Under the pieces are notes generated by a model. That model ran no database searches. It saw only the letters and a program-made list of their open reading frames with translations, and was not told the origin of the DNA. Below, one piece after another: positions 3,305-54,060 of a DNA stretch of 55,026 bases. Each line of letters starts with the position of its first letter. Position 1 is the first letter of the stretch. Location of the stretch: IMG/VR virus record IMGVR_UViG_3300049217_000152, positions 1-55,026 of that record; one strand, 5' to 3'. Position numbers and translations under genes: made by a program. The DNA is from a virus.

Positions 3305-3715
3305 ATGACAGCTATCAGAGCCAAATCCGTAAAACGAGTAATCCTAGATTTCAGTGCCCCTAAATGCTCCAGGCACCGTATTATGAAATCTCTACGTAAT
3401 TGTGAAGTGATAGGGATTCAGGAGTCTAAAGAACGACCCGAGTTTACTATCTTTAGCAATGAGATTAGGGTAGGGATGTACACCATAACTCTAGAGCTTC
3501 CGTTAGACGGCTCTTTCAACTGGCACAGGCTGCGAGAGTACGGCGACTTTCAAATTAGCATTTGCGATACTAAACTCATTGACCTGAAAAGAGATGTTAG
3601 GTTCAAGGATCAATCGTGGGTGTCACATAACTTCTTTGGTCAGTTGCGTATCAAACACTTAATTGACATCATTAGTTATGTGCATCGTCTCAATAAACTG
3701 AAAGCCTTTTTATGA
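3305..3715 (+). CDS. unknown protein with LKAFL C-terminal tag
   Basis: A 136-residue protein with no recognised domain. The start is set by AGGTG at 3292-3296, which is 8 nt before the ATG at 3305 but only 2 nt before an in-frame GTG at 3299. The protein is basic at the N-terminus (MTAIRAKSVKRV). Its C-terminus VHRLNKLKAFL is the second tag flavour. No zinc motif is present. The stop overlaps the convergent gene's stop as TTATGA, so the Leu-stop of this tag and the Ser-stop of the opposite FS tag are read from the same six base pairs. Confidence 0.78.
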   Translation: MTAIRAKSVKRVILDFSAPKCSRHRIMKSLRNCEVIGIQESKERPEFTIFSNEIRVGMYTITLELPLDGSFNWHRLREYGDFQISICDTKLIDLKRDVRFKDQSWVSHNFFGQLRIKHLIDIISYVHRLNKLKAFL

Positions 3716-4285
3716 GAACACGATATAGGTCTTGATCTTCTCAAGAAAACGCTGTCTATTCTTGAATCTTTCTCTGGACATTAGAGGTAATGTCATCCGA
3801 AGCTGATTGCCACCTGACTTAGTATTAGGTTCCGGCACCACCAGCAGATTACTTATGTTCTTGTCATAGTAGCTATAGAGATGGTATAGCTTGCCACCAT
3901 CCGTAACGGCTGTTAGCTCGCTGGATAAGGTCGTGCCCTCGATAAACCCCTTATCTAAATGAAACTTCAAATCGTGGCTAACAGTCTGGGTATGACAGTT
4001 AGGACAGATTGTCTCTAAAGAAACTTTGCGATCACTTAGATAGGCCATTAGAGCCGATTTATCGTTAGCTAATATCTCATTAGTCTTGTGAAAAATATAG
4101 AGCTTGAGCACATTAGAGTAAGTAATGAGTAGGTCAATCTCCACGAAGTTGGGACCGACTATACCCCTAAGGTAGCTGGTGTCTGACTTGTGAGAGCTGA
4201 TGCCAATCCTAAAGTTGTTAGGCTTGCCGCATCCGAAGCAGGGACAGCTATAGTCAATGAAGTCCTTGACCGTCATCTTTCTCAT
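3710..4285 (-). CDS. double zinc-knuckle protein with FS-type tag
   Basis: A 191-residue array member. The N-terminus [21 protein letters not shown] carries the first knuckle and ICPNCHTQ at about residue 94 the second. The C-terminus RFLEKIKTYIVFS is the shared tag. The first 18 residues are nearly repeated in the short chimera immediately upstream (4285-4482), whose stop overlaps this start as TAATG. Function unknown; tandem duplication with the chimera is seen directly. Confidence 0.8.
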   Translation of the reverse strand: MRKMTVKDFIDYSCPCFGCGKPNNFRIGISSHKSDTSYLRGIVGPNFVEIDLLITYSNVLKLYIFHKTNEILANDKSALMAYLSDRKVSLETICPNCHTQTVSHDLKFHLDKGFIEGTTLSSELTAVTDGGKLYHLYSYYDKNISNLLVVPEPNTKSGGNQLRMTLPLMSRERFKNRQRFLEKIKTYIVFS

Positions 4286-4482
4286 TAGGAGTTCTGCTTT
4301 TGCAGGTAAGCTATCATAAAGCCTTGAATGTCGCCATTCAGCACGCCATCCGCATCAGAGGTTTCGTGGTCGGTGCGATGGTCCTTGACCAATTTGTAGG
4401 GCATGAGAGTGTAGGTTCTAATCTGGTTGCCGAAGCAGGGCGCGTTGTAATCGATGAAATCTTTTACAGTGAACTTTCGCAT
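4285..4482 (-). CDS. chimera: zinc-protein N-terminus joined to RF2 C-terminus
   Basis: A 65-residue reading frame made of two unrelated pieces. Residues 1-18, [18 protein letters not shown], match the start of the neighbouring zinc protein ([18 protein letters not shown]). From there to the end, [18 protein letters not shown] through [12 protein letters not shown], it matches the C-terminus of release factor 2 ([30 protein letters not shown]). The junction falls at the shared Phe-Gly codons (TTYGG), a microhomology. It lacks the zinc core, tag, GGQ and SPF motifs, so neither parent activity is expected. It may be expressed: it has an intact ATG and is coupled to the next gene. It looks like recombination debris left by the adjacent HNH gene. 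Confidence 0.7.
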
Positions 4483-4502: not shown

Positions 4503-5084
4503 ATAGACAAAAACGCAACAAAGAAGTGGGACAAACAACGTCAGTCGGAATATTACAAAGAGTGGCGCAAGGCTAATAAAGAAAAACTCACGGCGTACCA
4601 GAAAAATTGGCGCGCAGAAAACAAAGACCACCTCGAACAGTACTACAATGACAACTCTGAACAGATATCAAAACGACAGAAGGGATGGCGCGTATCACAT
4701 CCAGGTCGTGCCAAACGGCTCTGGGACGCATGGTACCAGGAAAACAAGACACGAAGTCCTCGAAGACGCTTTACTGAAGCTAAACACGCGGCCAAGAAAC
4801 GCGGAATTTCTTGGTCTCTAACTCTCGAAGAATATACAGCATTGATTGCCATGCCATGCTATTACTGCGAGAATAAACTTTGCGAGCCTGTAAAAAGAGC
4901 CACGGGACTTGATCGTCTAAATTCTGATGAAGGATACGAACTATCAAACGTGGTCTCATGTGGTTACATGTGTAACTGTATGAAACACATGTTTCTAACA
5001 CCAGAAGAGATGAAATTCGTCGCACAAGCACTTATTGTTTTCAGAGCACGCGGGAAGATGGATGCTGCAAAAAAGCTACCATGA
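4503..5084 (+). pseudogene. HNH homing endonuclease with lost start codon
   Basis: The open frame from an ATA at 4503 reads as a complete HNH homing endonuclease of about 193 residues. A charged Tyr/Trp-rich N-terminal repeat (EYYKEWRKANKEKLTAYQ, then similar units) is followed by the HNH core: PCYYCENKL, GLDRLNSDEGY, NVVSCGYMCN and LTPEEM. There is no ATG, GTG or TTG in frame before the TTG at 4842. The natural start is most simply an ATG changed to ATA at 4503-4505 (giving DKNATKKW next). Its last 15 codons lie antisense to the end of RF2. Probably a degraded or very weakly translated element; residual expression from ATA cannot be excluded. Confidence 0.7.
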
Positions 5085-6141
5085 ACCCCTGCACATCACC
5101 ATCTAAAACGGATGCGGCTTTAGAGGTTTCGTGATTAGTTCTATGATCTTTCACGAGAGTATATGGACTAAGCGTATACGTCCTTATCTGGGCTCCAAAT
5201 GAAACATCAGAGAGGGCCGATACTTTCTTGTCCTGTTCTTCTCGCTTCTTCTTCAACTCATAATCATATAGTTTGGACTTTAACATCTTCATAGCAAACC
5301 TACGATTAGTATGTTGCGAACTTTCCGCCCTAGAATTGACTATAATACCAGTAGGGACGTGTTTAATCCTAACGGCACTTTCAATTTTGTTGACTGCCTG
5401 CCCACCAGAACCAGATGCCCTCATAGTGGTAATCTCGATGTCCTTTTCATCCACCTTGATGTCAATAGTATCTTCAATGTCAGGTGTCACATAGACAGCG
5501 GCAAAGGAAGTTTGACGAGCATCAGCCGCATTGAAGGGTGAGTTGCGGATCAAACGATGCACGCCCGACTCGCTCTTGAAAAAACCATAAGCGAAGGGAC
5601 CGTCAACTCGAATGGAAACGGAGTCAGTACAGATCGAGCTATGCTCTTCCGATGGCTTCTCGTCAAGGATCTCTATCTGAAATCCTTGGTTATCGGCAAA
5701 GCGTGTGTACATACGATAAAGCATGGTAACCCAGTTAGCCGCTTCTAATCCACCGGCACCAGCACTGATAGAGATGATGGCAGGAGTTTGATCGACAGGA
5801 TCCTTGAGCATTTCCTGAAAGACCAACATATGAAGTTGTGTATGGATATCTAGAAGATGAATGAAATCTGCCTCATTGAGACCGTCGGTAGTCTTAATGA
5901 CTTCCTCGTAGAATTCCAGGTACTCGCTAGCTTGGCTAACGTATTCTAAATATTCAGAAGCTTGCTTACGTTCTTTCATCAGGGCTCCGGCAGCCCGAGG
6001 ATCGTTCCATAGACCTGGGGCATTAAGCTTCTCATCTAGCTCGGCCATCCTTTTTTGAAGTGGATCGGCGGGGGACATCTTTTCCAAGGCAGCCATGCTG
6101 TCTCGGCAGGCTTGGAGTGTCTGTAAATGCACTGTGTTCAT
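5041..6141 (-). CDS. prfB: peptide chain release factor 2
   Basis: A full-length 366-residue class I release factor. The N-terminal helical domain includes [16 protein letters not shown] (about residues 44-59). The codon-recognition tripeptide SPF is at 201-203, in [15 protein letters not shown], which marks RF2 (UGA/UAA) rather than RF1. The peptidyl-tRNA hydrolysis motif GGQ is at 246-248 ([15 protein letters not shown]). No programmed frameshift is needed: the frame is open from the ATG. The last 15 codons overlap the antisense HNH gene, and a second, different copy of the RF2 C-terminus sits beyond it, so the 3' end has been rearranged. Phage-borne RF2 would favour termination at UGA/UAA during infection. 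Confidence 0.96.
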
Positions 6142-6163: not shown

Positions 6164-6619
6164 TTAGGAGAAAATAATCCAAGTCTTCAATCTCTCTTTG
6201 AAATTATCTAGATGATGCCAGTCAATCTCAAAAGTGTAAGGTATCCTACAGACAGGAAACCACTTACGCCTACCTTTCGGTTTTGATGAGCCGGCCAACT
6301 CTAACGGCGGGTCCTCAAAACTACTAACGATAAAAACCGGACTGTCGGTGCAAGGAACGTCTTCACGCCAAATTTGACTAGTTTGCTTGGATGACTCCAC
6401 CATAATATGATAATCATCAAGACAGAATGAGAAGCTGAGTAAAGTTCCATCCGTCATGTTTGACGTATACACTCCGTCTGGATACTGTATCTCTTCCTCG
6501 AAATCGATGGGGCACTCGTGTTGTTTGGAGATGTCGTTGCAAGTATAAACGTCCCTGTCGTCGTGTAGCAACCAACGCATCGGAGTTTTACAAAGCGGAC
6601 AAGTAGTTGTTATTTCCAT
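6164..6619 (-). CDS. zinc-ribbon protein with FS-type tag
   Basis: A 151-residue array member. It begins MEITTTCPLCKTPM, with CNDISKQHEC at about residues 28-37 providing the second Cys pair. The C-terminus FEIDWHHLDNFKERLKTWIIFS is a strong copy of the shared tag, including the acidic-aromatic lead. A TAAGTGAG stretch precedes the ATG. It lies between RF2 and a GIY-YIG remnant. Function unknown. Confidence 0.8.
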   Translation of the reverse strand: MEITTTCPLCKTPMRWLLHDDRDVYTCNDISKQHECPIDFEEEIQYPDGVYTSNMTDGTLLSFSFCLDDYHIMVESSKQTSQIWREDVPCTDSPVFIVSSFEDPPLELAGSSKPKGRRKWFPVCRIPYTFEIDWHHLDNFKERLKTWIIFS

Positions 6620-6815: not shown

Positions 6816-7538
6816 CTACGACATCAATATCCAAGAGTCCAAACGAGAAATTAGTTCTGGCCTCCGTGTTAGCTCAAAGTTGGGGCGAACGCCTAACATC
6901 GGCAATTCCTTCTTGAAGACCTTGGGCTCGAAATCAGCCACCTTTCTTTCGGCGGCTGTGGTAGCATAGTATCGGAGAACGGTTTGGGCGGTCTGGTAAT
7001 CAAAATTCAGGGCGTAAACCTTTTCCAAATCATCATTCTGCACCTTGAAGATGCAAATCTCATCTTTGGTTTGGCTAGGTGGTAGCTCAAAGATTCCATC
7101 CTTATCCTCCTCGTTCTTATCTTTAGAACGAGTTAGTTCCCATTCATCCACCTTATCATTACAGCTAAATTTGACGTAAGGAGAGGAACGAACATAACAA
7201 GCTATGTATGGATTCATAATCCAAGTATTGTAAGGCCTGTCTTCAATAGCGTCTTCATTACACATATAGTAGAAGAAGAAAGACCAGTCATTGAACTGAT
7301 TCATTACCTTGGTATCGCTGAAATGAACATCAAGATTGTCTCCGTGATCTACCAAGCGAACAGAAGACTTTATCTCTACACAAGTAGAATCTCCTTTGAT
7401 CAACAAGAAATCAAAGACACCCGGAGCCAAAGTCTTAGCCTTCCATAAAGGTCCCTCTGATACTTGTAGATATAGGCTAAGCGTTTCACCACAAACAGGG
7501 CAGTGCTTATTGAAATCCAAAAACTTACTCAGGTTCAT
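6816..7538 (-). CDS. large zinc-knuckle protein with WILMS tag
   Basis: About 240 residues from the ATG at 7538, which gives MNLSKFLDFNKHCPVCGETL and parallels MNLGEFISHRSHCPLCGTAL of the protein at 10765-11409. The frame is open to 7550. GGAG at 7545-7548 suits the 7538/7541 ATGs. A knuckle CPVC near residue 15 is the only clear zinc motif. The C-terminus NFELTRRPELISRLDSWILMS is a tag variant shared exactly with the orphan tail at 6639. It overlaps the end of the upstream GIY-YIG gene. Function unknown. Confidence 0.8.
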   Translation of the reverse strand: MNLSKFLDFNKHCPVCGETLSLYLQVSEGPLWKAKTLAPGVFDFLLIKGDSTCVEIKSSVRLVDHGDNLDVHFSDTKVMNQFNDWSFFFYYMCNEDAIEDRPYNTWIMNPYIACYVRSSPYVKFSCNDKVDEWELTRSKDKNEEDKDGIFELPPSQTKDEICIFKVQNDDLEKVYALNFDYQTAQTVLRYYATTAAERKVADFEPKVFKKELPMLGVRPNFELTRRPELISRLDSWILMS

Positions 7539-8256
7539 CATTAGCTCCATAATTTTGTAGAATCCATATTTGGTTATTTACTACCCTAGATATTAGGGCT
7601 GAAGACACACCATATTTCTCAGCCAACTTTGCCATTGAAATGCCGCCCAAAGCGTATTCTTTTCTTATTTTTCTTACTATATCCCAAGTGAGTTTTGATT
7701 GAGAATGTTTTTCTCCGACATATTTGCCCTTGAGAGATTGTGAGATTTTTTCCTTATGCTTTTTAGATAGCACAGATCCCCCTCTGTCGATAGACATTTG
7801 CTGCTTTTGTTCTGCACTCCAGCGAGGCTGGTTCTTTTGAGACTGCGATATAAGTCGCCTAGTTTCTTCTGAAACGGGACGGCCAGTCAGTGATCTTGAT
7901 ATGTTCCTTTTGCGTTCTTCTGAATGTTTCTTGCCAAAACTTGGATGATCGGAGCCGCTACCAAGAGTGTCGCCGCCCTTAACAATGTTATATCCTTTTT
8001 CTTTGTTGCGACTATCGTATTGTTTGATAAGCTGCACTTCAATTTCATCTGCATCATCTTGCGTTCGACAAGTGGCTATCACTTCAAGTTGAAAATTATC
8101 AATACCGTATTTGGCCATGGCCAAATGGATGGCCTGAGGTGGCTTTTCTTGTTTAGAATAACTTTTATGCGCCTGCCATCGTCTTCTGATATTTATTGTA
8201 TGACCTATGTAGTTCTTTTTATTTATCCGGTTAGTTATCTTGTATAAATAATGCAC
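7525..8256 (-). CDS. GIY-YIG homing endonuclease
   Basis: About 243 residues. The nuclease domain begins HYLYKITNRINKKNYIG, with IRRRWQAHKS, AKYGIDNFQLEV and VQLIKQYDSRNKEKGYN following, the last carrying the expected catalytic Glu region. Several NUMOD3-type repeats follow (FGKKHSEERKRNISRSLTG, LSKKHKEKISQSLKG). A C-terminal helix-turn-helix (MAKLAEKYGVSSALISRVV) ends it. The GTG at 8256 is chosen by alignment to the ATG of the sister fragment at 6769 and the GAGGTG upstream; an in-frame GTG at 8262 is possible. It sits between two tagged zinc genes and overlaps the start of the next. Confidence 0.92.
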   Translation of the reverse strand: MHYLYKITNRINKKNYIGHTINIRRRWQAHKSYSKQEKPPQAIHLAMAKYGIDNFQLEVIATCRTQDDADEIEVQLIKQYDSRNKEKGYNIVKGGDTLGSGSDHPSFGKKHSEERKRNISRSLTGRPVSEETRRLISQSQKNQPRWSAEQKQQMSIDRGGSVLSKKHKEKISQSLKGKYVGEKHSQSKLTWDIVRKIRKEYALGGISMAKLAEKYGVSSALISRVVNNQIWILQNYGANDEPE

Positions 8257-8300
8257 GTCCACCTCATCACACTATATATCAAGCAAATCACGATGTTCGA
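8257..8300 (-). promoter_or_regulatory. conserved GIY-YIG leader with TTGATATATA box
   Basis: A noncoding leader on the minus strand between the TTCTTGA end of the zinc gene and the nuclease GTG. It contains CGAACATCGTGAT, TTGATATATAGTGT and GAGGTG in the same order and spacing as the leader at 6770-6815. Probably a promoter with its RBS; no transcript data. Confidence 0.5.
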
Positions 8301-8921: not shown

Positions 8922-9560
8922 TCAAGAGAAAATGACTAGGTTTTTGATACGTTTCAATGTCTTATCGGGATCGTGGACATCCAAAGGAACTAGTGGAAGT
9001 GTCAGGGTTTTATCGTTCCAGCAAAGGGACGTTCTCTTGGGAGAGCCAGAAAAACACGTATACACTGTCTGATTAGTAGGATAGATATTCTTGATCTCGT
9101 GAACAGAATCACCGCTCTTGCTTTCGATAGAAAGCATTTCCGAATTTAGTTCTGTGGTGATTTGCCCTTGACCTTTTCCATTTGTATCTAGAATAATCTT
9201 GAGCCCAAATCCGTATTGACAGCAATCCTGACAATTAACTGCCAAACCAACATAAACCGCTCCGTTGAAAGCAATCTGCTGATAGACTGGAGAACCAGTA
9301 TAACTACCTGAATGTCCTGTATATCCAAAGACCGGATACATCTGATTAGAATTTTTGATAGTCAGACTAAACTCCCGAGTATCCATATCAATGGTCAAAA
9401 CACCATCGTGATGCCAAGTCAAAGTTCTCTTTTGATGACCACTAACGGGATCTTGAATAATACTTAGCTCAGCATCATCTCCATCAATCTTCATAGGGCC
9501 AGTGCATACTGGACAGTTCATATGATAGTTGATGCCGGCTAGAAGGGAGGGAAATGTCAT
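8922..9560 (-). CDS. zinc-knuckle protein with FS-type tag
   Basis: A 212-residue array member. MNCPVCTGPM begins at residue 14; the longer start at 9560 is preferred because it overlaps the upstream stop as ATGA. A second Cys cluster, CQDCCQYG, lies near residue 113. The middle is beta-rich in appearance. The C-terminus DPDKTLKRIKNLVIFS is the shared tag. Function unknown. Confidence 0.78.
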   Translation of the reverse strand: MTFPSLLAGINYHMNCPVCTGPMKIDGDDAELSIIQDPVSGHQKRTLTWHHDGVLTIDMDTREFSLTIKNSNQMYPVFGYTGHSGSYTGSPVYQQIAFNGAVYVGLAVNCQDCCQYGFGLKIILDTNGKGQGQITTELNSEMLSIESKSGDSVHEIKNIYPTNQTVYTCFSGSPKRTSLCWNDKTLTLPLVPLDVHDPDKTLKRIKNLVIFS

Positions 9561-10770: not shown

Positions 10771-11409
10771 GAAGACCACTAACTTATTGAGTCGGTCGAC
10801 AGTTTCTTCTTTGGAGATAAAGGGAACTAGGGCCAACTGAAGTGTTGTGTTTTGACTGGGGTGAGACCAGTCCAAATTATGATGTGGACCTTCCGATTTG
10901 TAAATGATTAGCTCACTACGATTTTCAATCAGATAATTGGTTAGTATATAGCAACGATAGTAATCATCTATTGGATGAGATAGTCCGAACTGTTCTACCC
11001 AAATTTCTAATGGCTCGAAAGAACCGGCAAACAAATTGATGTTGAACTGTTTGGAACCGTAAGCGTATTCTGAACAAGTAGGACAGCCTCGATAGAACTT
11101 AAAGAACTTGAGATTTTTGTGTAGTTCCTTGAACCTATCCATCAAAAAAGTGGGAGCCACTTTGTGATAGGCGTCTTCTTTACCCTTTTCGTAAAACTCT
11201 ATCTGAAAGGATGGATCGTTCATTCCAAATGAGTAAGCTACCTTATAGTCTTTTTGGAACTGATTGAGTCCGTCTAACTCAAAACTAACTGATACCCTGT
11301 TATCTTCGTAGCTGATGCTCTGTTTTCGGCGAGAATGAAAACCCGTCACCAAGGCTGTGCCACACAGTGGGCAATGACTTCGATGGCTGATAAACTCACC
11401 TAAGTTCAT
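10765..11409 (-). CDS. double zinc-knuckle protein with FS-type tag
   Basis: A 214-residue array member. MNLGEFISHRSHCPLCGTAL resembles the N-terminus of the 6816-7538 protein, and GCPTCSEYAYG at about residue 105 gives a second knuckle. The C-terminus KEETVDRLNKLVVFS is the shared tag. The ATG overlaps the stop of the FGE-like lipoprotein gene (ATGA), so it is probably cotranscribed from that gene's promoter. Function unknown. Confidence 0.8.
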   Translation of the reverse strand: MNLGEFISHRSHCPLCGTALVTGFHSRRKQSISYEDNRVSVSFELDGLNQFQKDYKVAYSFGMNDPSFQIEFYEKGKEDAYHKVAPTFLMDRFKELHKNLKFFKFYRGCPTCSEYAYGSKQFNINLFAGSFEPLEIWVEQFGLSHPIDDYYRCYILTNYLIENRSELIIYKSEGPHHNLDWSHPSQNTTLQLALVPFISKEETVDRLNKLVVFS

Positions 11410-12218
11410 TGCGTATCCTTACAGCACCTACCACCAAGCTCGTAGAAAACAGTGTCAGGTCCATGAGCTATTGTCTCGGGTCTGCATCGGTTTCTAGCTC
11501 CCAGGACCCAGTGTCCACCCATCAGCCCACTTTTATAGGGTTGACCAGAAGAATTGACTACCCACTCATCTGCGTTGCCAGTCATATCGTGCACGCCATA
11601 ATAAGAGACACAGTTAGGCATAGAACCAGAGGCCACACTTTGATTGAGCTTATCTACTATCTCGGGAGTCAGTTTAGTATTGACCGCATCATACCAAGGT
11701 CTCTGTGGGTGATCAATATTACAGATACCAGCATCTCGTTTATAGCCATAGGGATATGGAAGAATCTTAGGTCCTTCACAGGCCATAGACCACTCATGAT
11801 CCTGGCAAATTCTCTTTCCCTGTCCTTCACAGTTTTTCTTCATATCATACCAAGACAACATAACGGTAGGACGTTCTCCCGCTTTGTTAGGCCATTCATA
11901 AGTATCCATACAGAAATGCATATGAACTTTCTTATTGTCGGGCGTCAAACACTTGGTGGGGGCGAATTCTAAACATCTGACATAGCCATTGACATTATGC
12001 ACGTTCTTATCTAGATTGAGACACTCTTGTACCACGTTATGGCAAAAGTCTCCAGTGATTTCTACCATATCAGCAGGACAAACACTCTCTACAGATTCCA
12101 TGACGCCTGAAGTTATTGGCGCTGTCATAACGTCCGCCCGCAAAACTATTTTGTCTTGTGTAGAGCAGGCAATTATTAGAAATGTAGCGGCTAAAAATAA
12201 AAATACGGGGCGCTTCAT
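11406..12218 (-). CDS. FGE/SUMF1-like lipoprotein
   Basis: About 270 residues from the ATG at 12218, preceded by GAGGAA. The N-terminus MKRPVFLFLAATFLIIACST is a lipoprotein signal with lipobox LIIAC, so Cys18 would be lipidated and the protein anchored in a membrane. The remainder resembles the formylglycine-generating-enzyme (sulfatase-modifying-factor) fold: MHFCMDTYEWPN, GKRICQDHEWSMAC, YGVHDMTGNADEWV and GARNRCRPE are typical blocks. Whether the catalytic cysteines are kept is not clear; many family members only bind. A surface lipoprotein made during infection could block superinfection. Its own promoter and upstream terminator give it the layout of a moron gene. Confidence 0.8.
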   Translation of the reverse strand: MKRPVFLFLAATFLIIACSTQDKIVLRADVMTAPITSGVMESVESVCPADMVEITGDFCHNVVQECLNLDKNVHNVNGYVRCLEFAPTKCLTPDNKKVHMHFCMDTYEWPNKAGERPTVMLSWYDMKKNCEGQGKRICQDHEWSMACEGPKILPYPYGYKRDAGICNIDHPQRPWYDAVNTKLTPEIVDKLNQSVASGSMPNCVSYYGVHDMTGNADEWVVNSSGQPYKSGLMGGHWVLGARNRCRPETIAHGPDTVFYELGGRCCKDTQ

Positions 12219-12236
12219 GATTCCTCGGAGACCATC

Positions 12237-12264
12237 AGTATAATCATCCTCGTCCGCTCCGCAA
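12237..12264 (-). promoter_or_regulatory. sigma70-like promoter of the lipoprotein gene
   Basis: On the minus strand TTGCGG (12264-12259), a 16-bp spacer and TATACT (12242-12237) form a plausible -35/-10 pair, about 19 bp before the lipoprotein ATG at 12218. It lies just downstream of a terminator. Assigned by similarity to the host-type consensus only. Confidence 0.5.
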
Positions 12265-12270
12265 GTTGAC

Positions 12271-12309
12271 AAAACAAATAAAAATGGCGATGATTCGAGG
12301 TCATCGCCA
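12271..12309 (-). terminator. rho-independent terminator
   Basis: On the minus strand a perfect 9-bp stem TGGCGATGA/TCATCGCCA with a 7-nt loop (12285-12309) is followed by TTTTTATTTGTTTTG. It would end transcription of the peptidoglycan-binding protein gene (12388-12855) before the lipoprotein promoter. Confidence 0.85.
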
Positions 12310-16390: not shown

Positions 16391-16786
16391 ATGCACACGA
16401 AAAACTTTTTAGTCGATCTATCTAATTGGGACGAGGTCAAAGAATGCTTGATCCGTGATGGAGCGGTTATAGCTATGGGTGCCTTGCATTTTACACTGCG
16501 GGTAATGTTTAGGTTCACCACTAAACAGGAAGACAAAGATTTCATAGCCAAATTCGGCTTTCGGAAGATCAAAACCAAGACACATCACATTAGAGTTTTT
16601 CACGATGATCAACATACAGAACCATTGGTTATAGTGAAGCCCAGAGGTTTCTTGAAGATGTGGCAAGCAATGGAGAGAATGGATATGCCAGAATTTGTGG
16701 CAGAAGAAATATTCGACCCAGATTGTTCAAGAGAGAAAAGAAAACACTTGTTAGGCAAAGCAATTAGCTTGAAAGCCTTTTGGTAA
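16391..16786 (+). CDS. unknown protein with LKAFW tag
   Basis: A 131-residue basic protein with no recognised domain. It has beta-strand-like segments (LHFTLRVMFRF, KTHHIRVFHDD) and a charged C-terminal helix ending LGKAISLKAFW, the Trp form of the tag. It is the first of three LKAFW proteins on the plus strand. It starts just after the SET gene. Function unknown. Confidence 0.75.
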   Translation: MHTKNFLVDLSNWDEVKECLIRDGAVIAMGALHFTLRVMFRFTTKQEDKDFIAKFGFRKIKTKTHHIRVFHDDQHTEPLVIVKPRGFLKMWQAMERMDMPEFVAEEIFDPDCSREKRKHLLGKAISLKAFW

Positions 16787-16799
16787 GAAGCGAGGAAGA

Positions 16800-17468
16800 A
16801 TGTCAGGACTACATTATTACGTCATAGATACGGAAACAACCGGATTGAAATCTGGATACCACGAAATGACCGAAATCGGAATAATAAGGTGTGTAGATAG
16901 AGTTCAGCTCTGGAGGCAGATCAAGTGTGTTTATCCTGAAAGAGCCAACTTCGATGCTCTGGCCATCACCAAGAAAACGATGAGCGATCTAGAGCGAGGC
17001 TATGAGGGAGCGGCGGTAGTAGCGGAGTCCGAGAAGTTCTTTGCGGAAGATGGTTTGACGCCAGCTCACCGTTGCATCGTAGCTCACAACGCCCCTTTTG
17101 ATAGGAAGTTTTTACATGCCCTATGGGAGTCCTGTGGCAAAGAGTTCCCTGCTCATTTGTGGCTGGACACCATGTCATTGACTCGTCAGTTTCTCAAAGA
17201 GACTGGCATAGAGGCTGACCACAAAGCTAAAGGCTTGAAGAAGCCGCCCGTCAATTTGCACGCCGCCTGTGATTGGGTGGGTGTCAAGAAGATCTCCGAG
17301 GCTCACAATGCCAAGGTGGATAGTAGAAACACCTACTTGCTTCACCGTCAATTGGTAGAAGAAAAGAAGGTAGACTATTTGCCTTTTATCAAGACAGCCG
17401 CTCATATCGTGGCACCTCCGCCACCCGATGATGACGAGGGCTTGGACATGTCATTGTTAGATATATGA
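16800..17468 (+). CDS. DEDDh 3'-5' exonuclease (DnaQ/RNase T-like)
   Basis: A 222-residue exonuclease. Exo I is DTETTG at residues 10-15, Exo II HNAPFDRKFL at about 97-106, and Exo III the HNAKVD/TYLL segment near 163, supplying the acidic metal ligands and the histidine. An insert with FAEDGLTPAHRC is shared with the second exonuclease at 26439-27059 (LAEDGLPAEKRV), so the two are paralogues. The Pro/Asp-rich tail is flexible. It may proofread or process DNA or RNA. The start follows GAGGAAGA, and its stop overlaps the next start (ATGA). Confidence 0.9.
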   Translation: MSGLHYYVIDTETTGLKSGYHEMTEIGIIRCVDRVQLWRQIKCVYPERANFDALAITKKTMSDLERGYEGAAVVAESEKFFAEDGLTPAHRCIVAHNAPFDRKFLHALWESCGKEFPAHLWLDTMSLTRQFLKETGIEADHKAKGLKKPPVNLHAACDWVGVKKISEAHNAKVDSRNTYLLHRQLVEEKKVDYLPFIKTAAHIVAPPPPDDDEGLDMSLLDI

Positions 17469-18130
17469 AGAGTCCCAGTATCGAAAGGTTCCACGCCAAG
17501 ATAGAGAAGCAGATCCGATTAGTGGAGTCTTATACTGAATTAGAGGGACTGGTTTTTATCATCAAGATCTGTCGTCTCAAACCTTACGATTATGTCTTTG
17601 GCAAGAGGGAAACCTCAGCATCTTTGCATCGTTGGTGGTTTGATGAGTTTGGCAATTCCTTGGTCATCAAGGGTAAGCAAGTGTCTATTATCTACAATGA
17701 TCTCCGTCTAGATCGCAAAGAGATTATTGGGACTGATCTGTATGCTGGCCTAACAATGGATCGTATCGCTAAGATGAGTGAGTTGGCTCATCTTATAGCT
17801 GGCAAAGACGATGACTTACACCAGGATTGCTTCCTGCTGTCTTTCTTAGGGTTGGATAAGCATTTACGTTCCTACCTGTATTTGTATGGGGAGTGGCAGC
17901 AAGTATCGCCTTTGTTGATGGGGATCCATAACTTGGAAGCTCTAGCTAATAGCACAACTGTCAAGCACTACCGTCAATTGGCAAATAAAGAAAATTCGGT
18001 TTTGCCTTGCATTTCCACTCAGGCGTGGCTATCTTACTTACCCGCCAGTGTGGATTTTCTCACATTGTTAGACAAACAGTTTGATACTGTTTTACCCATT
18101 TTTAACCATAAGGAACACAACATTGAGTAA
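17465..18130 (+). CDS. unknown 221-residue protein
   Basis: No family recognised. The protein is mostly helical in appearance, with a basic N-terminus and a hydrophobic central part (FLLSFLGLDKHLRSYLYLYG). It is translationally coupled to the exonuclease (ATGA) and followed immediately by the IF-1 gene, whose RBS lies inside its last codons. The operon position suggests a nucleic-acid or translation role, but nothing in the sequence proves it. Confidence 0.65.
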   Translation: MKSPSIERFHAKIEKQIRLVESYTELEGLVFIIKICRLKPYDYVFGKRETSASLHRWWFDEFGNSLVIKGKQVSIIYNDLRLDRKEIIGTDLYAGLTMDRIAKMSELAHLIAGKDDDLHQDCFLLSFLGLDKHLRSYLYLYGEWQQVSPLLMGIHNLEALANSTTVKHYRQLANKENSVLPCISTQAWLSYLPASVDFLTLLDKQFDTVLPIFNHKEHNIE

Positions 18131-18344
18131 TAGAGACAGATTAGAGTTAGAAGGAACCGTTATCGATTCCAATAAGGGCAAGTTCAAGGTGAAGGTCAAC
18201 GAAAACCACACCGTCCTTTGCACGCTCAGCGGCAAAATCAGAACTAATTCGGTGCGTATTTTACTTGGCGATTTCGTAAAGATCGAAGTAAGCGAATACG
18301 ATTTATCGCAAGGTAGAATTGTATATCGTATTAAGGGCATGTAA
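18123..18344 (+). CDS. infA: translation initiation factor IF-1 homologue
   Basis: A 73-residue S1/OB-fold protein, almost exactly the length of bacterial IF-1. LELEGTVIDSNKGKFKVKV, LSGKIRTNSVRILLGDFV and SEYDLSQGRIVYR follow the bacterial protein closely, including the SGKxRxNxxRIxxGD and YDLxxGRIxxR blocks. IF-1 occupies the ribosomal A site during initiation. The start is a TTG at 18123, with AAGGAA at 18110-18115 (7 nt spacing); no ATG is available at the conserved N-terminus. A hairpin-prone GGGC...GCCC follows the stop. A phage IF-1 is unusual and suggests control of initiation. Confidence 0.93.
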   Translation: MSNRDRLELEGTVIDSNKGKFKVKVNENHTVLCTLSGKIRTNSVRILLGDFVKIEVSEYDLSQGRIVYRIKGM

Positions 18345-18398: not shown

Positions 18399-19466
18399 AT
18401 GATGATACTCGAAGGCTTGACGTTTGATGATGTGCTATTGGTTCCGCAACATTCTGATGTAAAAAGTCGCTCTACTGATGTAGACATCTCCGTCAATTTC
18501 GGCGCTTGCCATTTCGAGCACCCTATTATCCCAGCCAATATGAAAACGGTGACAGGCAAAGAAATGGCGCTGCACATCATCAAAAGTGGTGGCTTAGCTA
18601 TTCTACACCGCTTTATGGATATCCCAGAGCAATTGCATATTTCTGGAAAGATCATTGATGACCACGGCAATGAGCAGTTTGCTGTTTCCGTAGGTGTCAA
18701 ACCCTCTGATAGGGAGATGCTATTAGCCTTCTACAAAACCGGCATCCGAATGGTTTGCGTGGATGTGGCTCACGGGGATTCCGAGTTGTGTGTAGATATG
18801 GTGTCTTGGATTAGGGCTACCAAACCAGATATGTTCATCATTGCTGGCAACGTAGCCACTGGTGAGGGAGCTAAGAGATTGTGGATAGCTGGCGCCGATG
18901 CTGTCAAAGTGGGCGTTGGCCCAGGCTCTCTCTGCACTACCAGAATAGAAACTGGTAATGGCGTGCCACAACTGACCGCTTTGATGCAAGTCTTCCACAC
19001 CAAGAACGAACTGCTCAATCTCAATCGTATGTATGTAGAGCCGCCCAACTTTGAGCGAAAACACCCACAGTTGAGAGATAAACTTTACATCATCGCAGAT
19101 GGCGGCATCAAAGCGGCCGGTGATATTGTCAAGGCCCTGTGCTTTGCGGATATGGTGATGATTGGTAATCTCTTTGCTGGTTGTGAGGAAACTCCCAGTG
19201 AGAAGATGATTATGGATGGCGTCACCTACAAAAAGTATGTGGGCAGCTCTACTCATAAAGCCAATCATATCGAGGGGATAGCCGCCCTAGTTCCTTACAG
19301 CGGCAGCTATCGGCAAGTCATTACCAAACTGTTGGAAGGTTTACGCTCTGGCTGTTCCTACCAAGGGGCTCATACACTCAAAGAGCTGCAAGAGAATCCG
19401 ATCTTCGTCAAGATTACTAATGCGGGACTCAAAGAGTCTCATCCACACGATGTAGTGATAACATAA
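18399..19466 (+). CDS. IMP dehydrogenase/GMP reductase family enzyme
   Basis: A 355-residue TIM-barrel enzyme starting [17 protein letters not shown] after a good RBS. The catalytic loop [18 protein letters not shown] carries the nucleophilic Cys at about residue 179. [17 protein letters not shown] is the phosphate-binding part. The end, [17 protein letters not shown], is IMPDH-like, whereas the preceding [15 protein letters not shown] recalls GMP reductase. The regulatory CBS pair is absent and the flap is short. It may oxidise IMP to XMP for guanine nucleotides or reduce GMP. The gene lies next to thyX and dut in a nucleotide-pool cluster. Confidence 0.88.
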
Positions 19467-19474
19467 GGTGAACT

Positions 19475-20131
19475 ATGGAAGAGAAACACAAGAATAGAGT
19501 AGAGCTAATAGGCGTCTATGGCTCTGATGAAACGCATGCCCTGTCCGCTTGGACTTCAACATCTAGAGATTTAGATGATGAGAAACGTGGTAGAATGGGC
19601 AAACTGCTAACTATGCTAGCAGAAAATCACCATGAAACCCCGTTCGAAAAGAGTTCGCAGCATTTTCTGGTAACAACAGAGATAAACACCCACTACCAAA
19701 TTCTCAAACATCGCATAGGTGTATCAGTCAATGCGGAATCAGCCCGCTACAAAGAGTTGAAAGATGATAAGTTTTACATACCAAATGATTGGCCCCAAGA
19801 TGAACAAACATTGCTAATAATACACTGTGAGGAATCTATTCGCAAGTATCACGAATGTTTGACTCGTTTGGTCAAAGCCGGAGTTTCCAAAAAACGAGCC
19901 AAAGAGAGTGCTCGTTTTTATTTACCGCAGGCCAACCAGATCACGGCCGATATTATGTTCAATTTTAGATCCTTTATGCATTTTGTCGGGCTGCGCAACA
20001 ACGAGCACGCACAAAAAGAGATTCGTGATATATCTCGACAGATGCTGGAAAAAATTGAGCAGACGAAACAGTTTTCATTATCACTGAATGCCTTCGGCTG
20101 GACCGAAGAAAAAATATATGGGCCCCGATAA
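19475..20131 (+). CDS. thyX: flavin-dependent thymidylate synthase ThyX
   Basis: A 218-residue ThyX, making dTMP from dUMP with FAD and methylene-tetrahydrofolate. The signature RHRxxSxNxxSxRY appears as KHRIGVSVNAESARY (about 78-92), with Lys for the first Arg. ENHHETPFEK (about 50-59) and MHFVGLRNNEHAQKEIR (near 170-185) are the other conserved blocks. An RBS-like AAGGTGA precedes the ATG. The 3' end overlaps the next gene, a GIY-YIG endonuclease. It acts downstream of dUTPase. Confidence 0.95.
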   Translation: MEEKHKNRVELIGVYGSDETHALSAWTSTSRDLDDEKRGRMGKLLTMLAENHHETPFEKSSQHFLVTTEINTHYQILKHRIGVSVNAESARYKELKDDKFYIPNDWPQDEQTLLIIHCEESIRKYHECLTRLVKAGVSKKRAKESARFYLPQANQITADIMFNFRSFMHFVGLRNNEHAQKEIRDISRQMLEKIEQTKQFSLSLNAFGWTEEKIYGPR

Positions 20132-20858
20132 TATTTACTATACCTATCACCTTGTTGATCCTAAAACAAACGAGGCCTTCTACGTTGGTAAAGGTAAAGG
20201 ACAGCGCGCCTATATTCATTTAACGAGAGCATTGCATTGGCATGAAACCGGACTATCGGTACCAGGCGCCAATTTTCATCTTTACAATAAGCTCCTAAAG
20301 CTTCAGCGCAATGGACTAGAGCCCATTTACGTTTTTGTTCTCGAAAACGTTTCAGAGAAAGAGGCGTTAGCACGAGAAATGGAAGATATCCAAAAGATAG
20401 GAATAGATAAGTTATGCAACCTTACCTATGGTGGTGAGGGAGAAACCAGATCGCCTGAAATCTTGAAGAAGATCTCAAAATCTCTCAGAGAATTTTGGGA
20501 CTCTGAAGATGGCACACAGATGCGTCAAAAGTTTTCGGAAAATAGAACCGGTGAGAAAAACCCCAGATGGGGCACTATTGAAGACGATGAGCATAAGATG
20601 AATCGTATGGCGCCAATGCTATCACGGCCTCGATGGAATGTAGGATTGAAGGGCGACCCACGCTCTAAAGGTCATCCCAAAGGAAGCTTACCACACAACG
20701 CTCTTATGTGCCGCTTGATAAACGAAGATGGAAGAATTGTGGAAGCGAACTCTCTCAAAAAGTTGTCTGAGCTATCCGGCGTCCCACTAATGTCAATTAG
20801 TAGAATAAGGGCTGGTAAGAAAAACAAGAAAGGGTGGCGTCTTGAAACTATCGAGTAA
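20118..20858 (+). CDS. GIY-YIG homing endonuclease
   Basis: About 246 residues from the ATG at 20118, inside the end of thyX; the frame is open further upstream but the nuclease domain begins here. The domain uses YYTYHLVDPKTNEAFYVGKGKGQRAYIH, the YVGKGKGxRaxxH subtype distinct from the other GIY-YIG genes in the window. A NUMOD-like part (GEKNPRWG) and a C-terminal helix-turn-helix (SLKKLSELSGVPLMSISRI) follow. Placement at the 3' end of thyX fits a homing site in that gene. Confidence 0.9.
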   Translation: MGPDNIYYTYHLVDPKTNEAFYVGKGKGQRAYIHLTRALHWHETGLSVPGANFHLYNKLLKLQRNGLEPIYVFVLENVSEKEALAREMEDIQKIGIDKLCNLTYGGEGETRSPEILKKISKSLREFWDSEDGTQMRQKFSENRTGEKNPRWGTIEDDEHKMNRMAPMLSRPRWNVGLKGDPRSKGHPKGSLPHNALMCRLINEDGRIVEANSLKKLSELSGVPLMSISRIRAGKKNKKGWRLETIE

Positions 20859-20866
20859 GAGGATCT

Positions 20867-21205
20867 ATGGCACGCCGTAAAAAACCAGCAAGGAGAGTTC
20901 ACTTGAAAGCTGCACCACGCATTTTCATCAAATCACCCACAACCATCATGACGATAAACTACAACGCTATCATCATTGATGGGCCGGTTAGTGATGCGGC
21001 CGTAGATTTTGTCCGCTATCTTTTTGACGAGCAAAGAAGTTGGGCCTCTATAAATCAAGAACGAATAGATATGATGTCTCTTCATATCCACAACAACAAT
21101 GGTAGGTATCACTTCACTGTTGATCAGAATGTGAGATTGCCAGAAAACTGGAACGAGTTCGTTTCCATCGTGCAGAGGATTTGCCAACTGAAAGCCTTCT
21201 GGTAA
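20867..21205 (+). CDS. unknown protein with LKAFW tag
   Basis: A 112-residue protein with a strongly basic N-terminus (MARRKKPARRVHLKAAPR) that could contact nucleic acid. The body shows beta/alpha alternation with no known match. The C-terminus IVQRICQLKAFW is the tag. GAGGATCT upstream of the ATG is the RBS. The stop overlaps the next start as TAATG, and the next protein also ends LKAFW, so the two are coupled. Confidence 0.75.
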   Translation: MARRKKPARRVHLKAAPRIFIKSPTTIMTINYNAIIIDGPVSDAAVDFVRYLFDEQRSWASINQERIDMMSLHIHNNNGRYHFTVDQNVRLPENWNEFVSIVQRICQLKAFW

Positions 21206-24629: not shown

Positions 24630-25253
24630 ATGTTCCACGTATACACCATCCAGAACAAATTGAACCTGAAAATTTATGTGGGTAAAACTAAAAATTTATC
24701 CAGCAGATTTTATGGGCACAAAAATACAGCCAAAAATGGCTATATCAGCGGTAGAACTAATTTTAACCTGATACATAAAGCACTAAGAAAATACGGTGAA
24801 GATAATTTTTCTTTCCAATCACTATAAGAATTTGAGAACGAACAGGACGCCTTAGAAGCAGAAAAGTTTTGGATTGCATTTTTCAGATCTAATGTAGTCA
24901 GATTTGGTAGCGAATACGGATATAATTTGACCGATGGTGGTGATGGTGCTTCGTCTGGCATTAGTAATCCATTTTATGGCAAGCCATTGCTAGAAACAAC
25001 TAGAAAGAAGCTGAGTATATCACACACTGGACAGCATGTAGGCGAACTAAATATAATGCACAACAAACATCACAGTATATCTGCTAAAACAAAAATGAGT
25101 ATCAAAAATAGAAAGGTAGACGACATATCAGTTGAGCAAATCAGAACACTATCACGGACAGGTAAATATACCGGAAAACAATTGTCCAAGATGTTCAATG
25201 TTTCTACCGCACAAATTTCAAGAATCATCAACAGAAAACAACGTAATCTATGA
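24630..25253 (+). pseudogene. GIY-YIG homing endonuclease with in-frame stop
   Basis: A GIY-YIG gene interrupted by one in-frame TAA at 24825-24827. The first part has MFHVYTIQNKLNLKIYVGKTK, LSSRFYGHKN and RKYGEDNFSFQSL. Past the stop the same frame continues EFENEQDALEAEKFWIAF, GYNLTDGGDGASSG and a C-terminal helix-turn-helix (GKQLSKMFNVSTAQISRII). A single base change explains the break; there is no frameshift. Without readthrough the peptide lacks the catalytic Glu. It is more AT-rich than the flanking genes, consistent with a foreign element. Confidence 0.85.
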
Positions 25254-39039: not shown

Positions 39040-39588
39040 CTACTTTCCCAAAGCCAGGATAGAGTCAATCAATTGCACGCGTTCCTGCATATTATCCATA
39101 TTGATTTGGAAATGCGGCAAATTCCACATGCACAGCATAAACTTGATCATTGCATCGATAGCCACCACGCCATCCCAATTTAGACTTTCGCGGACTCCGT
39201 CAGCCTTCAGGGTGGCCTTGGACGGGCGAACGAAGAATATAAATACTCCTGGCTCACGCAAAGATGCCAAATAGGCGGTTAGCTCCGTAGATTGCAGAAG
39301 GTCAGGTAAAACGGTGCTATGTTGGGCGCCATAAGCTAAACAATCAAAACTGCGATCCGAGACAAATTGATCTAATTTGCCCTCTTCGTGAAGCTGCCTA
39401 TAGAAGATGTCCTTCTGGTAGGTATTGACCAACTCCATATCATAGCGCAAGGAGTCCAATTGCAGCTCCTTTTCCGACAAAATCATACGAGCTACTTCTG
39501 TAATCATAGGGAAGTTATAGCGTTCCGAAACATAACGAGCACAGGTGGTTTTACCCGTGCTGTGAGAACCGATGAAATAGACCTTCAT
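39040..39588 (-). CDS. P-loop kinase-like ATPase (AAA_28/NadR-type)
   Basis: A 182-residue P-loop protein. The Walker A GSHSTGKTT is at residues 8-16, followed by EVARMIL and FVSDRSFDCLAYG (Asp-Arg, typical of nucleoside or NMN kinases). It resembles the AAA_28 family near the ribosylnicotinamide kinase domain of NadR. It may phosphorylate a nucleoside or NAD precursor. The start overlaps the stop of the upstream tagged gene by 4 nt. Substrate unknown. Confidence 0.8.
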   Translation of the reverse strand: MKVYFIGSHSTGKTTCARYVSERYNFPMITEVARMILSEKELQLDSLRYDMELVNTYQKDIFYRQLHEEGKLDQFVSDRSFDCLAYGAQHSTVLPDLLQSTELTAYLASLREPGVFIFFVRPSKATLKADGVRESLNWDGVVAIDAMIKFMLCMWNLPHFQINMDNMQERVQLIDSILALGK

Positions 39589-39926
39589 AGAAATGCCTTT
39601 ATCTTTTGGTATTTGGTAAATTTGTGAATAACTTCATCTTCCGTATAACCAATGAAAGTGTAGATATGCAATGCATCATTTCCACTCATTAATCCCTTTG
39701 GCTGATTTGGTTGTTTGATCCGGCAGGCCGGAGCGTTTCTCTCTGCATTAGCGAAAATTATGTCGTCATTAAAATTCGCAGTACTACGATCGCCAAACCA
39801 AATATACAGCCCGCAATCAGAATAAGTTTTGACGTATATGCCGCCAAAAATCATATACAAAAAATCATCTAACTTGACTGGGTCATATCCTTCAAAGAAC
39901 TCTTGTAGCTTGTCAGACCGAATCAT
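39585..39926 (-). CDS. unknown protein with KIKAFL tag
   Basis: A 113-residue protein, MIRSDKLQEFFEGYDP at the start, with no recognised domain. The C-terminus VIHKFTKYQKIKAFL is a tag with Ile for Leu. The stop overlaps the kinase ATG and its own ATG overlaps the tag stop of the frameshifted gene upstream (ATGA). It belongs to a chain of coupled tagged genes. Function unknown. Confidence 0.75.
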   Translation of the reverse strand: MIRSDKLQEFFEGYDPVKLDDFLYMIFGGIYVKTYSDCGLYIWFGDRSTANFNDDIIFANAERNAPACRIKQPNQPKGLMSGNDALHIYTFIGYTEDEVIHKFTKYQKIKAFL

Positions 39927-40913: not shown

Positions 40914-41165
40914 TTACAAAAACGCTCGTAAGTTCATAAATCTATTCCATCTCTTCCAAAAATCCCGATAAGAATCTCCCCAAGGCATAGATGACATTCC
41001 TACGGTGTGACTATATCCTTCTTTAGTCCGAATCTCAAAAGACCAGTTATCGAAGTTTTCATAGTATGGGGCCGGAAAGAGCTTCTCAAACTCACGTAAC
41101 AAAACAAGGGGCCGGCCCTGTAAAACCAACCTGATTTCGCCTATACCTCTCACTCCTGTTATCAT
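40914..41165 (-). CDS. small protein with NLRAFL tag
   Basis: An 83-residue protein, MITGVRGIGEIRLVLQGRPL at the start. The C-terminus FWKRWNRFMNLRAFL is the tag, with Arg for Lys. The ATG overlaps the stop of the methionine aminopeptidase gene (ATGA), so it is coupled to it. No other motif; function unknown. Confidence 0.75.
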   Translation of the reverse strand: MITGVRGIGEIRLVLQGRPLVLLREFEKLFPAPYYENFDNWSFEIRTKEGYSHTVGMSSMPWGDSYRDFWKRWNRFMNLRAFL

Positions 41166-41983
41166 AGGCTTCTATCGGTAATGATTTCTACACGATCTGA
41201 ATGCACAAATATAGAGTGCTCAAAATGGGCGGACAAGTCTGGTGTCATCACTGTCCAACCATCCTCTGCGGTGGTGGTGGCAACAGAGCCTAAGACGAAC
41301 ATAGGCTCGATAGCGATAGCCAAGCCAGGATGGATTCTTACTCCCTTGTCAGCAGTAGAGATATTTTCCACAAAGGGTTGGGCGTGAGGTGTTTCCCAAT
41401 CCAAACCGTGGCCACCATAATTGTTGATGACATTGAAGCCATACTCTTTGGCGCACTTGGAGATAGCTTGACCAATGATGCCTATCCTATCCTCCGCCCC
41501 TAATTTTCTGCCCATATCGATAGCACCAATAGCTATCATCAAAGCTTCTTCCGTGGCTTTGACCAGCTTGACATGCGTGTCAGACTTGGGTTGGCCGTAG
41601 ATGCAAGTAATAGCGGTATCTGCAATAGCACCCTGATAAGTGGCCCCTAAGTCAAAAGAAACTAAATCTCCCTCTTGTAACACGTAGCTAGTAGGAATAC
41701 CGTGCACCAACTGCTTGTTGACAGAAATACAGACAGCATCAGGGAAACCCTTATATCCTTTGAAAGTGGGAGTACATCCGCTATGGTCTTGGATGTAGCC
41801 TTCGGCAAGGAAACTCAGTTCCTGTAAAGAAAGATCGGTACCCCTCTTTACTTGGTCTTCCAACAGCAAAAGGGCCCCAGCAGTAACTTTGCCAGCGACC
41901 CTTTGTTTCTCCAACCAGTTATCGTCTTTTAGACGGATCAAGCTGTTGTCAGCGAACAGCCCTCGGGGAGCGTTCAGTCTCAT
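41162..41983 (-). CDS. map: methionine aminopeptidase type I
   Basis: A 273-residue methionine aminopeptidase, removing the N-terminal Met of new proteins. The five metal ligands are all visible: D111 (VSFDLGA), D122 (AIADTAIT), H192 (GGHGLDW), E226 (AIAIEPM) and E255 (HFEHSIFV). The substrate-site His94 lies in NKQLVHGIP. Length fits bacterial type I enzymes. With IF-1 and RF2 it forms a set of phage translation-associated genes. Confidence 0.95.
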   Translation of the reverse strand: MRLNAPRGLFADNSLIRLKDDNWLEKQRVAGKVTAGALLLLEDQVKRGTDLSLQELSFLAEGYIQDHSGCTPTFKGYKGFPDAVCISVNKQLVHGIPTSYVLQEGDLVSFDLGATYQGAIADTAITCIYGQPKSDTHVKLVKATEEALMIAIGAIDMGRKLGAEDRIGIIGQAISKCAKEYGFNVINNYGGHGLDWETPHAQPFVENISTADKGVRIHPGLAIAIEPMFVLGSVATTTAEDGWTVMTPDLSAHFEHSIFVHSDRVEIITDRSL

Positions 41984-49848: not shown

Positions 49849-50226
49849 TTACCAAAAAGCTTTCAGCTTCATATAGCTGCGTATCTTGAGTGCATCGCCT
49901 TCTTTGCGGAAGGATAACGGATCTGACCAGGCTGTGCTGTATGAATCAGTAGGTAGTTGTGTAGCGATTTTGATGAGACCTGTTTCTAATCCCCAATTTC
50001 CCCAGCAAGTGGTAATACCGTTATTGAAGAAACCCTTCTTACCCATACGCATAGCCGTCTTAGAAAGACATTCGTAGAACCTGCGCTTCTGTTGGGGTAT
50101 GACAGTAAACTGCACTAAATCGGATGGATACACACAGATGTGAGTATATTGTAGTTCGTTGATAATGATATCGAGATTGTCAATAGCGATTTTATCCATT
50201 TCTTTCACCATAACTATTAAGTTCAT
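49849..50226 (-). CDS. unknown protein with KLKAFW tag
   Basis: A 125-residue protein, MNLIVMVKEMDKIAIDNLD to the end. The centre (RFYECLSKTAMRMGKKGFFN) has one Cys only, no zinc motif. The C-terminus ALKIRSYMKLKAFW is the Trp tag. The ATG overlaps the upstream small gene's stop (ATGA). Function unknown. Confidence 0.75.
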   Translation of the reverse strand: MNLIVMVKEMDKIAIDNLDIIINELQYTHICVYPSDLVQFTVIPQQKRRFYECLSKTAMRMGKKGFFNNGITTCWGNWGLETGLIKIATQLPTDSYSTAWSDPLSFRKEGDALKIRSYMKLKAFW

Positions 50227-52553: not shown

Positions 52554-53219
52554 TTATTCGATCCAGGTTTTTCGTCTAACAATCTGGTTAATGATTTGCT
52601 GACTGACGCCATACTTTTTGGCCAAATCTACTTGCCTGGCACCACTCGCAAACTCTTCTCTTATGGAACGAACAATTTTCCATGTTAGCTTGGCTCCTGG
52701 ATGCTTTTCGCCAGAACTAGATGCAGACATTTTTTGTCTGGTTTTCTCAGAATGATGCTTGCCAAGCATTATAGTGTTTCCTATTTTTGCCGCCGATTGT
52801 TTTATTCTAGTCTCTTGTGAAAGTGGTCGACCTATTTTAGCAAGAGACATTTTCTTCTTACTAGCCTCTGTATGAGTTTTACCTTTTTGAGCCTCGGACA
52901 TCAATCTTCTTGTTTCTAAAGATGGTTTTCCGTTAGAACCGCCATCTTTGATATTATAGCCACGCTCTATACTTTCATAACTCTTGATGAAATGTTGCTC
53001 CCAATAATTGGCAACACCTTGCGTGTGTGCTACGGTTAGCAACTCTATAATGAAATTGTCTCGACCATATTTTTTGAAAGCGTTATACAGTTTGCGACAG
53101 CCATTTGCCTTCGGGGTTTTGTGTTTAGACAGTCTTTCGCTCAAGGTAGTCCACGTTTGTCCTACATAAACTTTGTCGTTTACCCTATTGCGAATGACAT
53201 ACACATTACACCAATCCAT
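52554..53219 (-). CDS. GIY-YIG homing endonuclease
   Basis: A 221-residue homing nuclease. CNVYVIRNRVNDKVYVGQTW holds the GIY/YIG pair; KKYGRDNFIIEL and WEQHFIKSYESIERGYNIKDG follow, with the catalytic Glu region. NUMOD3-like repeats (SEAQKGKTHTEASKKKMS) and a C-terminal helix-turn-helix (RQVDLAKKYGVSQQIINQIV) complete it. It is inserted directly before the helicase loader. Intact. Confidence 0.92.
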   Translation of the reverse strand: MDWCNVYVIRNRVNDKVYVGQTWTTLSERLSKHKTPKANGCRKLYNAFKKYGRDNFIIELLTVAHTQGVANYWEQHFIKSYESIERGYNIKDGGSNGKPSLETRRLMSEAQKGKTHTEASKKKMSLAKIGRPLSQETRIKQSAAKIGNTIMLGKHHSEKTRQKMSASSSGEKHPGAKLTWKIVRSIREEFASGARQVDLAKKYGVSQQIINQIVRRKTWIE

Positions 53220-53221
53220 AT

Positions 53222-53707
53222 TTACTTCTTTCTGCCAAAATGCTTTCGGAGAATGTTCGCTTCTTGCTTGGCAGCTAAGATAGCAATATTCCCACTAGGA
53301 GCATAAGCTGAACGCCTAGGGGCAGATGGAGAACCAAAATGTTCTTTGATCTTATCAGAGATGATTTTCTTTTCTTGCTCTACCACCAATTGACGTAACT
53401 GTTGGACATTCATTTTAGCCAGCTCCGCGTCATCTGTTGGGTTCAAGACTTCCTCTAGCTTCTCCTTGACGGCCTGTTTTATTTCAGGCAATTCAAGTTT
53501 CGGCTTTTCGATTGATTTTTCTTGTGGTTCTTCCAGCACAACCTTGGTGACCGCTATATCCTCGCTCGGACGATGTATAATCAAAACACTTTGATCGGCT
53601 AATGATTTCAATACTACTTGGACGTCAGACCACTCTTCCACAATTCCTTCTAGAACCATTGTGGAACGCATAAAACATTTGACGTGTTGTCCTTTTTCTG
53701 GAGTCAT
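53222..53707 (-). CDS. Sm/Hfq-like barrel protein
   Basis: A 161-residue protein. The N-terminal part (about 1-60) reads KGQHVKCFMRSTMVLEGIVE, then VQVVLKSLADQSVLIIHRP. This follows the Sm fold of Hfq: a strand with a residue pattern like GxxLxGxI, then an LLK-type strand, then a short strand with HAI. The Sm2-like end is less clear. The remainder is a charged helical tail (PEIKQAVKEKLEEVLN). RNA binding is inferred from fold resemblance only. Confidence 0.5.
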   Translation of the reverse strand: MTPEKGQHVKCFMRSTMVLEGIVEEWSDVQVVLKSLADQSVLIIHRPSEDIAVTKVVLEEPQEKSIEKPKLELPEIKQAVKEKLEEVLNPTDDAELAKMNVQQLRQLVVEQEKKIISDKIKEHFGSPSAPRRSAYAPSGNIAILAAKQEANILRKHFGRKK

Positions 53708-54060
53708 AGGAATGCCTTTAGTTTGTGGAAACGTAATAGTGCTGAGATGACTTCAGCGTTATCAGACTGTATGATAAAGATGGTAGATGATCCATATAGT
53801 CCAACATCAGTTCCCCGTACCGCTATTGCGCATATCTGTGAATAGGACGCAACATCGGAACCTGGCTTCTGACAAAACCCATCTATCCATCTGTCTATAG
53901 AACGCTTGCTAGTCTGATGATCGACGACCCAAACGTGAGGAATGCGTAAAACACGCAAACACTCCTTGACAAAAGAGGAGCCTACAGCTTCGCTCAGGTT
54001 TTGTAGCTTCTTATTGGCATAAGAAATTGGCTTGAAATAATGCCGCATGTGGTATTTCAT
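53704..54060 (-). CDS. unknown protein with KLKAFL tag
   Basis: A 118-residue protein, MKYHMRHYFKPISYANKKLQ at the start, with a beta-alpha core (VLRIPHVWVVDHQTSKRSIDR). The C-terminus ALLRFHKLKAFL is a perfect tag. It is coupled to the next gene by ATGA and starts in the upstream tag's stop. Function unknown. Confidence 0.75.
   Translation of the reverse strand: MKYHMRHYFKPISYANKKLQNLSEAVGSSFVKECLRVLRIPHVWVVDHQTSKRSIDRWIDGFCQKPGSDVASYSQICAIAVRGTDVGLYGSSTIFIIQSDNAEVISALLRFHKLKAFL

Follow-up and report, generated by a model that had tools for sequence, protein, structure and literature searches.

A translation initiation factor IF-1 gene conserved in a clade of huge phages with release factor 2 and methionine aminopeptidase

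Translation genes have been described in huge phages, among them IF1, IF3, RF1, RF2, S21 and EFs (Al-Shayeb et al. 2020, PMC7162821). The conserved genes listed for Jug phages include initiation factor 1A (PMC12363816), and bS21 has been proposed to favour phage transcripts (PMC9723584). The presence of IF1, IF3, RF2 and S21 in huge phages is already known, and the general idea is published (PMC7162821). The locus considered here lies in a 55,026-bp stretch of DNA (the window), which is a whole virus record and, judged by its size against that of its relatives, presumably a fragment of a larger virus. The gene set is of the same kind as that reported from phages over 200 kb (PMC7162821), and its IF-1 is phage-encoded as in the Lak and Jug gut phages, whose genomes span 360-550 kb. 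In contrast to the published sets, it belongs to one clade with a conserved trio of IF-1, RF2 (in a fixed divergent arrangement) and methionine aminopeptidase. This clade is newly defined, together with IF-1 features of its own and a conserved upstream gene without a known fold. The window carries the following features.

5041-6141, minus strand: peptide chain release factor 2 (RF2)
17465-18130, plus strand: conserved 221-residue gene adjoining IF-1
18110-18114, plus strand: Shine-Dalgarno-like AAGGA, within the preceding gene
18123-18344, plus strand: IF-1 (infA)
18402-19466, plus strand: IMP dehydrogenase/GMP reductase-family gene
41162-41983, minus strand: type I methionine aminopeptidase

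The IF-1 gene is a genuine, intact copy of bacterial IF-1. Its coding frame occupies positions 18123-18341, closes with a TAA stop at 18342-18344 and yields 73 residues without an internal stop. The product scores 82.5 bits against the infA equivalog TIGR00008 (cut-off 61.15, E 1.6e-23, residues 5-69) and 66.4 bits against Pfam eIF-1a (PF01176), and the equivalog cut-off is also passed by the IF-1 of all 11 relatives. An initial annotation had called the protein a near full-length IF-1. The identity stands, but the alignment with solved IF-1 chains from the PDB (44-52% identical) runs end to end, so the protein is full length. The TTG start with a ribosome-binding site inside the upstream gene, also proposed at that stage, is borne out by the AAGGA located 8 nt 5' of the TTG (a 5-nt Shine-Dalgarno score) and by the relatives, of which L002 has TTG at the same codon and others have ATG. 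The IF-1 frame begins before the preceding gene has ended, and the two frames share 8 nt. IF-1 would be produced during infection, probably by translational coupling to this preceding gene. In a further relative (L010, 7971-8004), the IF-1 N-terminus bears a DRDRDR expansion encoded by a short tandem repeat of GATAGA.

Across two IMG/VR scans, IF-1 occurs at 68-82% identity on 21 viral contigs, the longest of 480,838 bp, and further matches fall to about 60% identity or less. The nearest bacterial IF-1s, from GTDB genomes, reach about 50-57% identity. The window sequence and its relatives cluster together (support 98/87) in a tree of 116 distinct IF-1s, with no row from a bacterial genome among them, and the tree, built on 70 residues, assigns this group no bacterial sister. 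The dN from the window IF-1 to its relatives is 0.17-0.30, with saturated synonymous sites and variation at all third codon positions of the alignment, a pattern that indicates purifying selection on IF-1 in the clade. Since IF-1 is universal in bacteria, a host infA in a mis-assembled contig has to be weighed. No support for it was found, and the difference between bacterial and viral identities, the conserved phage neighbourhood and the monophyly of the clade leave it a vanishingly small probability. Contamination is excluded on these grounds, and the gene is a phage gene, as first annotated. It had also been described as rare in phages. This is true of phage records at large, with tblastn matches in 34 of 50,697, several of which may be bacterial DNA (fragments without annotation, labelled as phages of ordinary hosts); within this huge-phage group the gene is routine. 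Lak phages and others are among the tblastn matches, and Lak IF-1 is just 39% identical to that of the window, a comparison over 70 residues in which common descent and separate acquisition cannot be told apart. At the DNA level, positions 1-25000 of the window match none of the phage records.

The neighbourhood of IF-1 was read in 11 relatives. The order dUTPase, HD-domain gene, the gene at 15543, SET-domain gene, exonuclease, the 17465-18130 gene, IF-1 and IMPDH-family gene is present in all 11, with insertions, and ThyX comes next in several. The IMPDH-family gene (PF00478, 309 bits) lies 3' of IF-1 in every relative inspected, often beyond inserted genes. The 17465-18130 gene is directly 5' of IF-1 in most relatives; in L003, L004, L007 and L008 a homing endonuclease or up to two small genes intervene, the endonuclease in L007 and L008 being of the GIY-YIG type. 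Its orthologues in L002-L012 show 43-60% identity. Searches with its product in Pfam, PHROGs, PDB sequences and phage tblastn returned no match, and its AlphaFold2 model, although confident (pLDDT 82.5), resembles no PDB fold at E≤0.001.

The AlphaFold2 model of IF-1, made from phage sequences alone (pLDDT 86), adopts an S1-type OB fold with a short helix (residues 37-41) between strands 3 and 4. Its best Foldseek matches are all IF-1 (TM 0.85-0.91) and include the 30S-bound 9fco, 9h9h and 1hr0. In C. difficile IF-1, residues K39, R41, R46, Y60, R64 and R66 lie at the 30S interface, the β1-β2 loop sits in the minor groove of h44, and this loop and the 39-46 region contact h44 and the 530 loop (PMC10913371). 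In E. coli numbering with Met counted, none of the 18 distinct phage-clade sequences departs from K39, R41, N43, Y60, R66 or R70. Position 46 is K or R throughout, and the basic contacts K39, R41, R46 and R66 thus read K, R, R/K and R in 18 of 18, so that the predicted A-site binding surface is kept. The clade therefore resembles bacterial IF-1 (InfA) in its full-length OB fold, its equivalog-level score and the equivalents of these invariant residues, and the phage IF-1 would bind the A site of the host 30S subunit (h44, 530 loop, S12) in the bacterial manner. IF-1 belongs to the S1 family of OB-fold RNA binders and has RNA-chaperone activity, and the window protein also matches the N-terminal OB domain of RsgA weakly. 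These properties would suit a protein that now serves mainly as a small RNA-binding factor in infection, for example as an RNA chaperone or antiterminator, and not in initiation; the invariance falls specifically at 30S-contact residues, and the gene co-occurs with other ribosome-directed genes, which makes this role very improbable.

An L-P-N-x β1-β2 loop and Tyr44 are usual in bacterial IF-1 without being demanded by the family model. No clade member has this combination: the phage loop, which reads NKG with few exceptions, has one residue fewer than L-P-N-x, and Ser replaces Tyr44 in 18 of 18 distinct sequences. His35 is likewise replaced by Thr or Ser. Each of the 50 distinct bacterial rows has Tyr at position 44, a count obtained with a pattern that admitted just S or Y there and hence no measure of other bacterial residues at this site. 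The loop and Tyr44 changes are a lineage difference, because the clade still clears the curated cut-off and position 44 also differs among IF-1-like sequences of other viral contigs. The altered loop is the one that inserts into h44 in known structures, and with this change and Ser44 the affinity for 30S could differ. In one alternative, the phage loop and Ser44 change the grip on the 30S A site, with a bias to phage messages or non-standard starts, or with a slowing of host initiation. It is favoured by the clade-wide changes themselves, by their location in regions in contact with h44 and the 530 loop (PMC10913371), and by the bS21 of the largest relatives, given its proposed preference for phage transcripts (PMC9723584). 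The retention of the main 30S contact residues, the variability of position 44 in other viral contigs, and a use of Shine-Dalgarno sequences and ATG starts about as in bacteria all count against it, and we consider it unlikely. A version in which this specialised IF-1, with its own h44-facing loop and Ser44, retunes host 30S initiation during infection together with the 17465-18130 product as partner is a decidedly long shot.

The start contexts were scanned in the window, its relatives, two phages of 430-480 kb and bacterial DNA, with a crude measure that counts matches of 4 nt or more with the anti-Shine-Dalgarno complement 5' of the first ATG of mechanically called open reading frames. Such matches precede 39% of genes in the window (27% for interior ATGs), 42-60% in relatives (15-20%) and 46% in the bacterial set scored alike (25%). 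By this measure, Shine-Dalgarno use in these phages is about the same as in bacteria, which leaves no start context peculiar to the phages for IF-1 to favour. The initial annotation, which noted many starts without a clear ribosome-binding site and suggested that the phage perhaps favours its own start contexts, is not supported on this point, and special start contexts were rejected. A match between RF2 and avoidance of TAG was also considered. Pooled stop codons comprise 27 TAG and 138 TGA, but TAG/(TAG+TGA) ranges from 3% to 30% among phages (15% in the window), so that the link is weak, and it was dropped as evidence.

Both companion genes named at the outset pass their family cut-offs and form a conserved set with IF-1. 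RF2 reaches 389.7 bits against TIGR00020 (cut-off 370) and keeps the SPF (201) and GGQ (246) motifs; in the window it is a single frame, with no programmed frameshift seen. Nine of the 12 records have it above cut-off, each time in divergent orientation to IF-1 and at a distance of 8.5-12 kb. Two records lacking it, G011 and probably G003, end too near IF-1 to hold a whole RF2; the third, G010, starts about 14 kb 5' of IF-1, and the absence there is unexplained. Beside RF2, the last 46 residues of a 65-residue open reading frame (4285-4482, minus strand) resemble the RF2 C-terminus (60% nucleotide identity), and its N-terminus is common to the 3710-4285 gene; the frame is a diverged chimeric duplicate. 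Type I methionine aminopeptidase, at 214 bits against TIGR00500 (cut-off 171), has residues matching all five metal ligands and the motifs FDLG-x7-AD, GHG, EP and FEH, and is found in 11 of the 12 records. bS21 is confined to the contigs over 430 kb, where all four encode it, and two of the four also carry IF-3. IF-1 relatives lie on contigs of up to 480,838 bp with RF2, methionine aminopeptidase, bS21 and IF-3. A further difference from the published sets (PMC7162821) is that RF1 and a true IF-2 were not found in the records searched, where absences mean little because most records are fragments. RF1 matches were the RF2 genes again, and IF-2 candidates in two relatives were rejected with scores far under the cut-off. 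A tRNA search of the window was negative.

Taken with the fold, contacts and neighbourhood, this co-occurrence makes it probable that the gene encodes a functional IF-1 of a huge-phage clade, adding to or replacing host IF-1 within a ribosome-cycle kit. The kit would consist of IF-1, RF2 and methionine aminopeptidase, joined in the largest members by bS21 and sometimes IF-3, and would keep the ribosome cycle going for the phage, with phage IF-1 supplementing or substituting for the host factor. The need for a second IF-1 is not evident, because host IF-1 is normally present. Of the reading first proposed, the IF-1 itself, its phage origin and its conserved association with RF2 and methionine aminopeptidase are retained, and the special start contexts are not. 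A clade in which these three genes are conserved, with a syntenic IF-1 under purifying selection, opens phage takeover of initiation and termination to tests with small purified proteins.

Several other features were observed in the window. One of two C-terminal motifs, LKAF[LWV] (10) or LKTYLVFS-like (8), is shared by 18 of the 74 open reading frames, otherwise dissimilar by eye (for example 2165-2569, 2569-2925, 3710-4285, 6164-6619, 8922-9560, 16391-16786, 20867-21205, 39585-39926, 49849-50226 and 53704-54060). These C-termini are less frequent in relatives and occur in 0 of 459 bacterial-locus frames and 0 of 381 frames of other viral contigs; they are possibly a common C-terminal tag or mark a modular gene family. 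Genes resembling GIY-YIG-type homing endonucleases are located at 22-783, 7525-8262, 20088-20858, 24630-24827 and 52554-53219. The frame at 11406-12272 (minus strand) resembles formylglycine-generating (SUMF) enzymes by eye, with homologues in several relatives.
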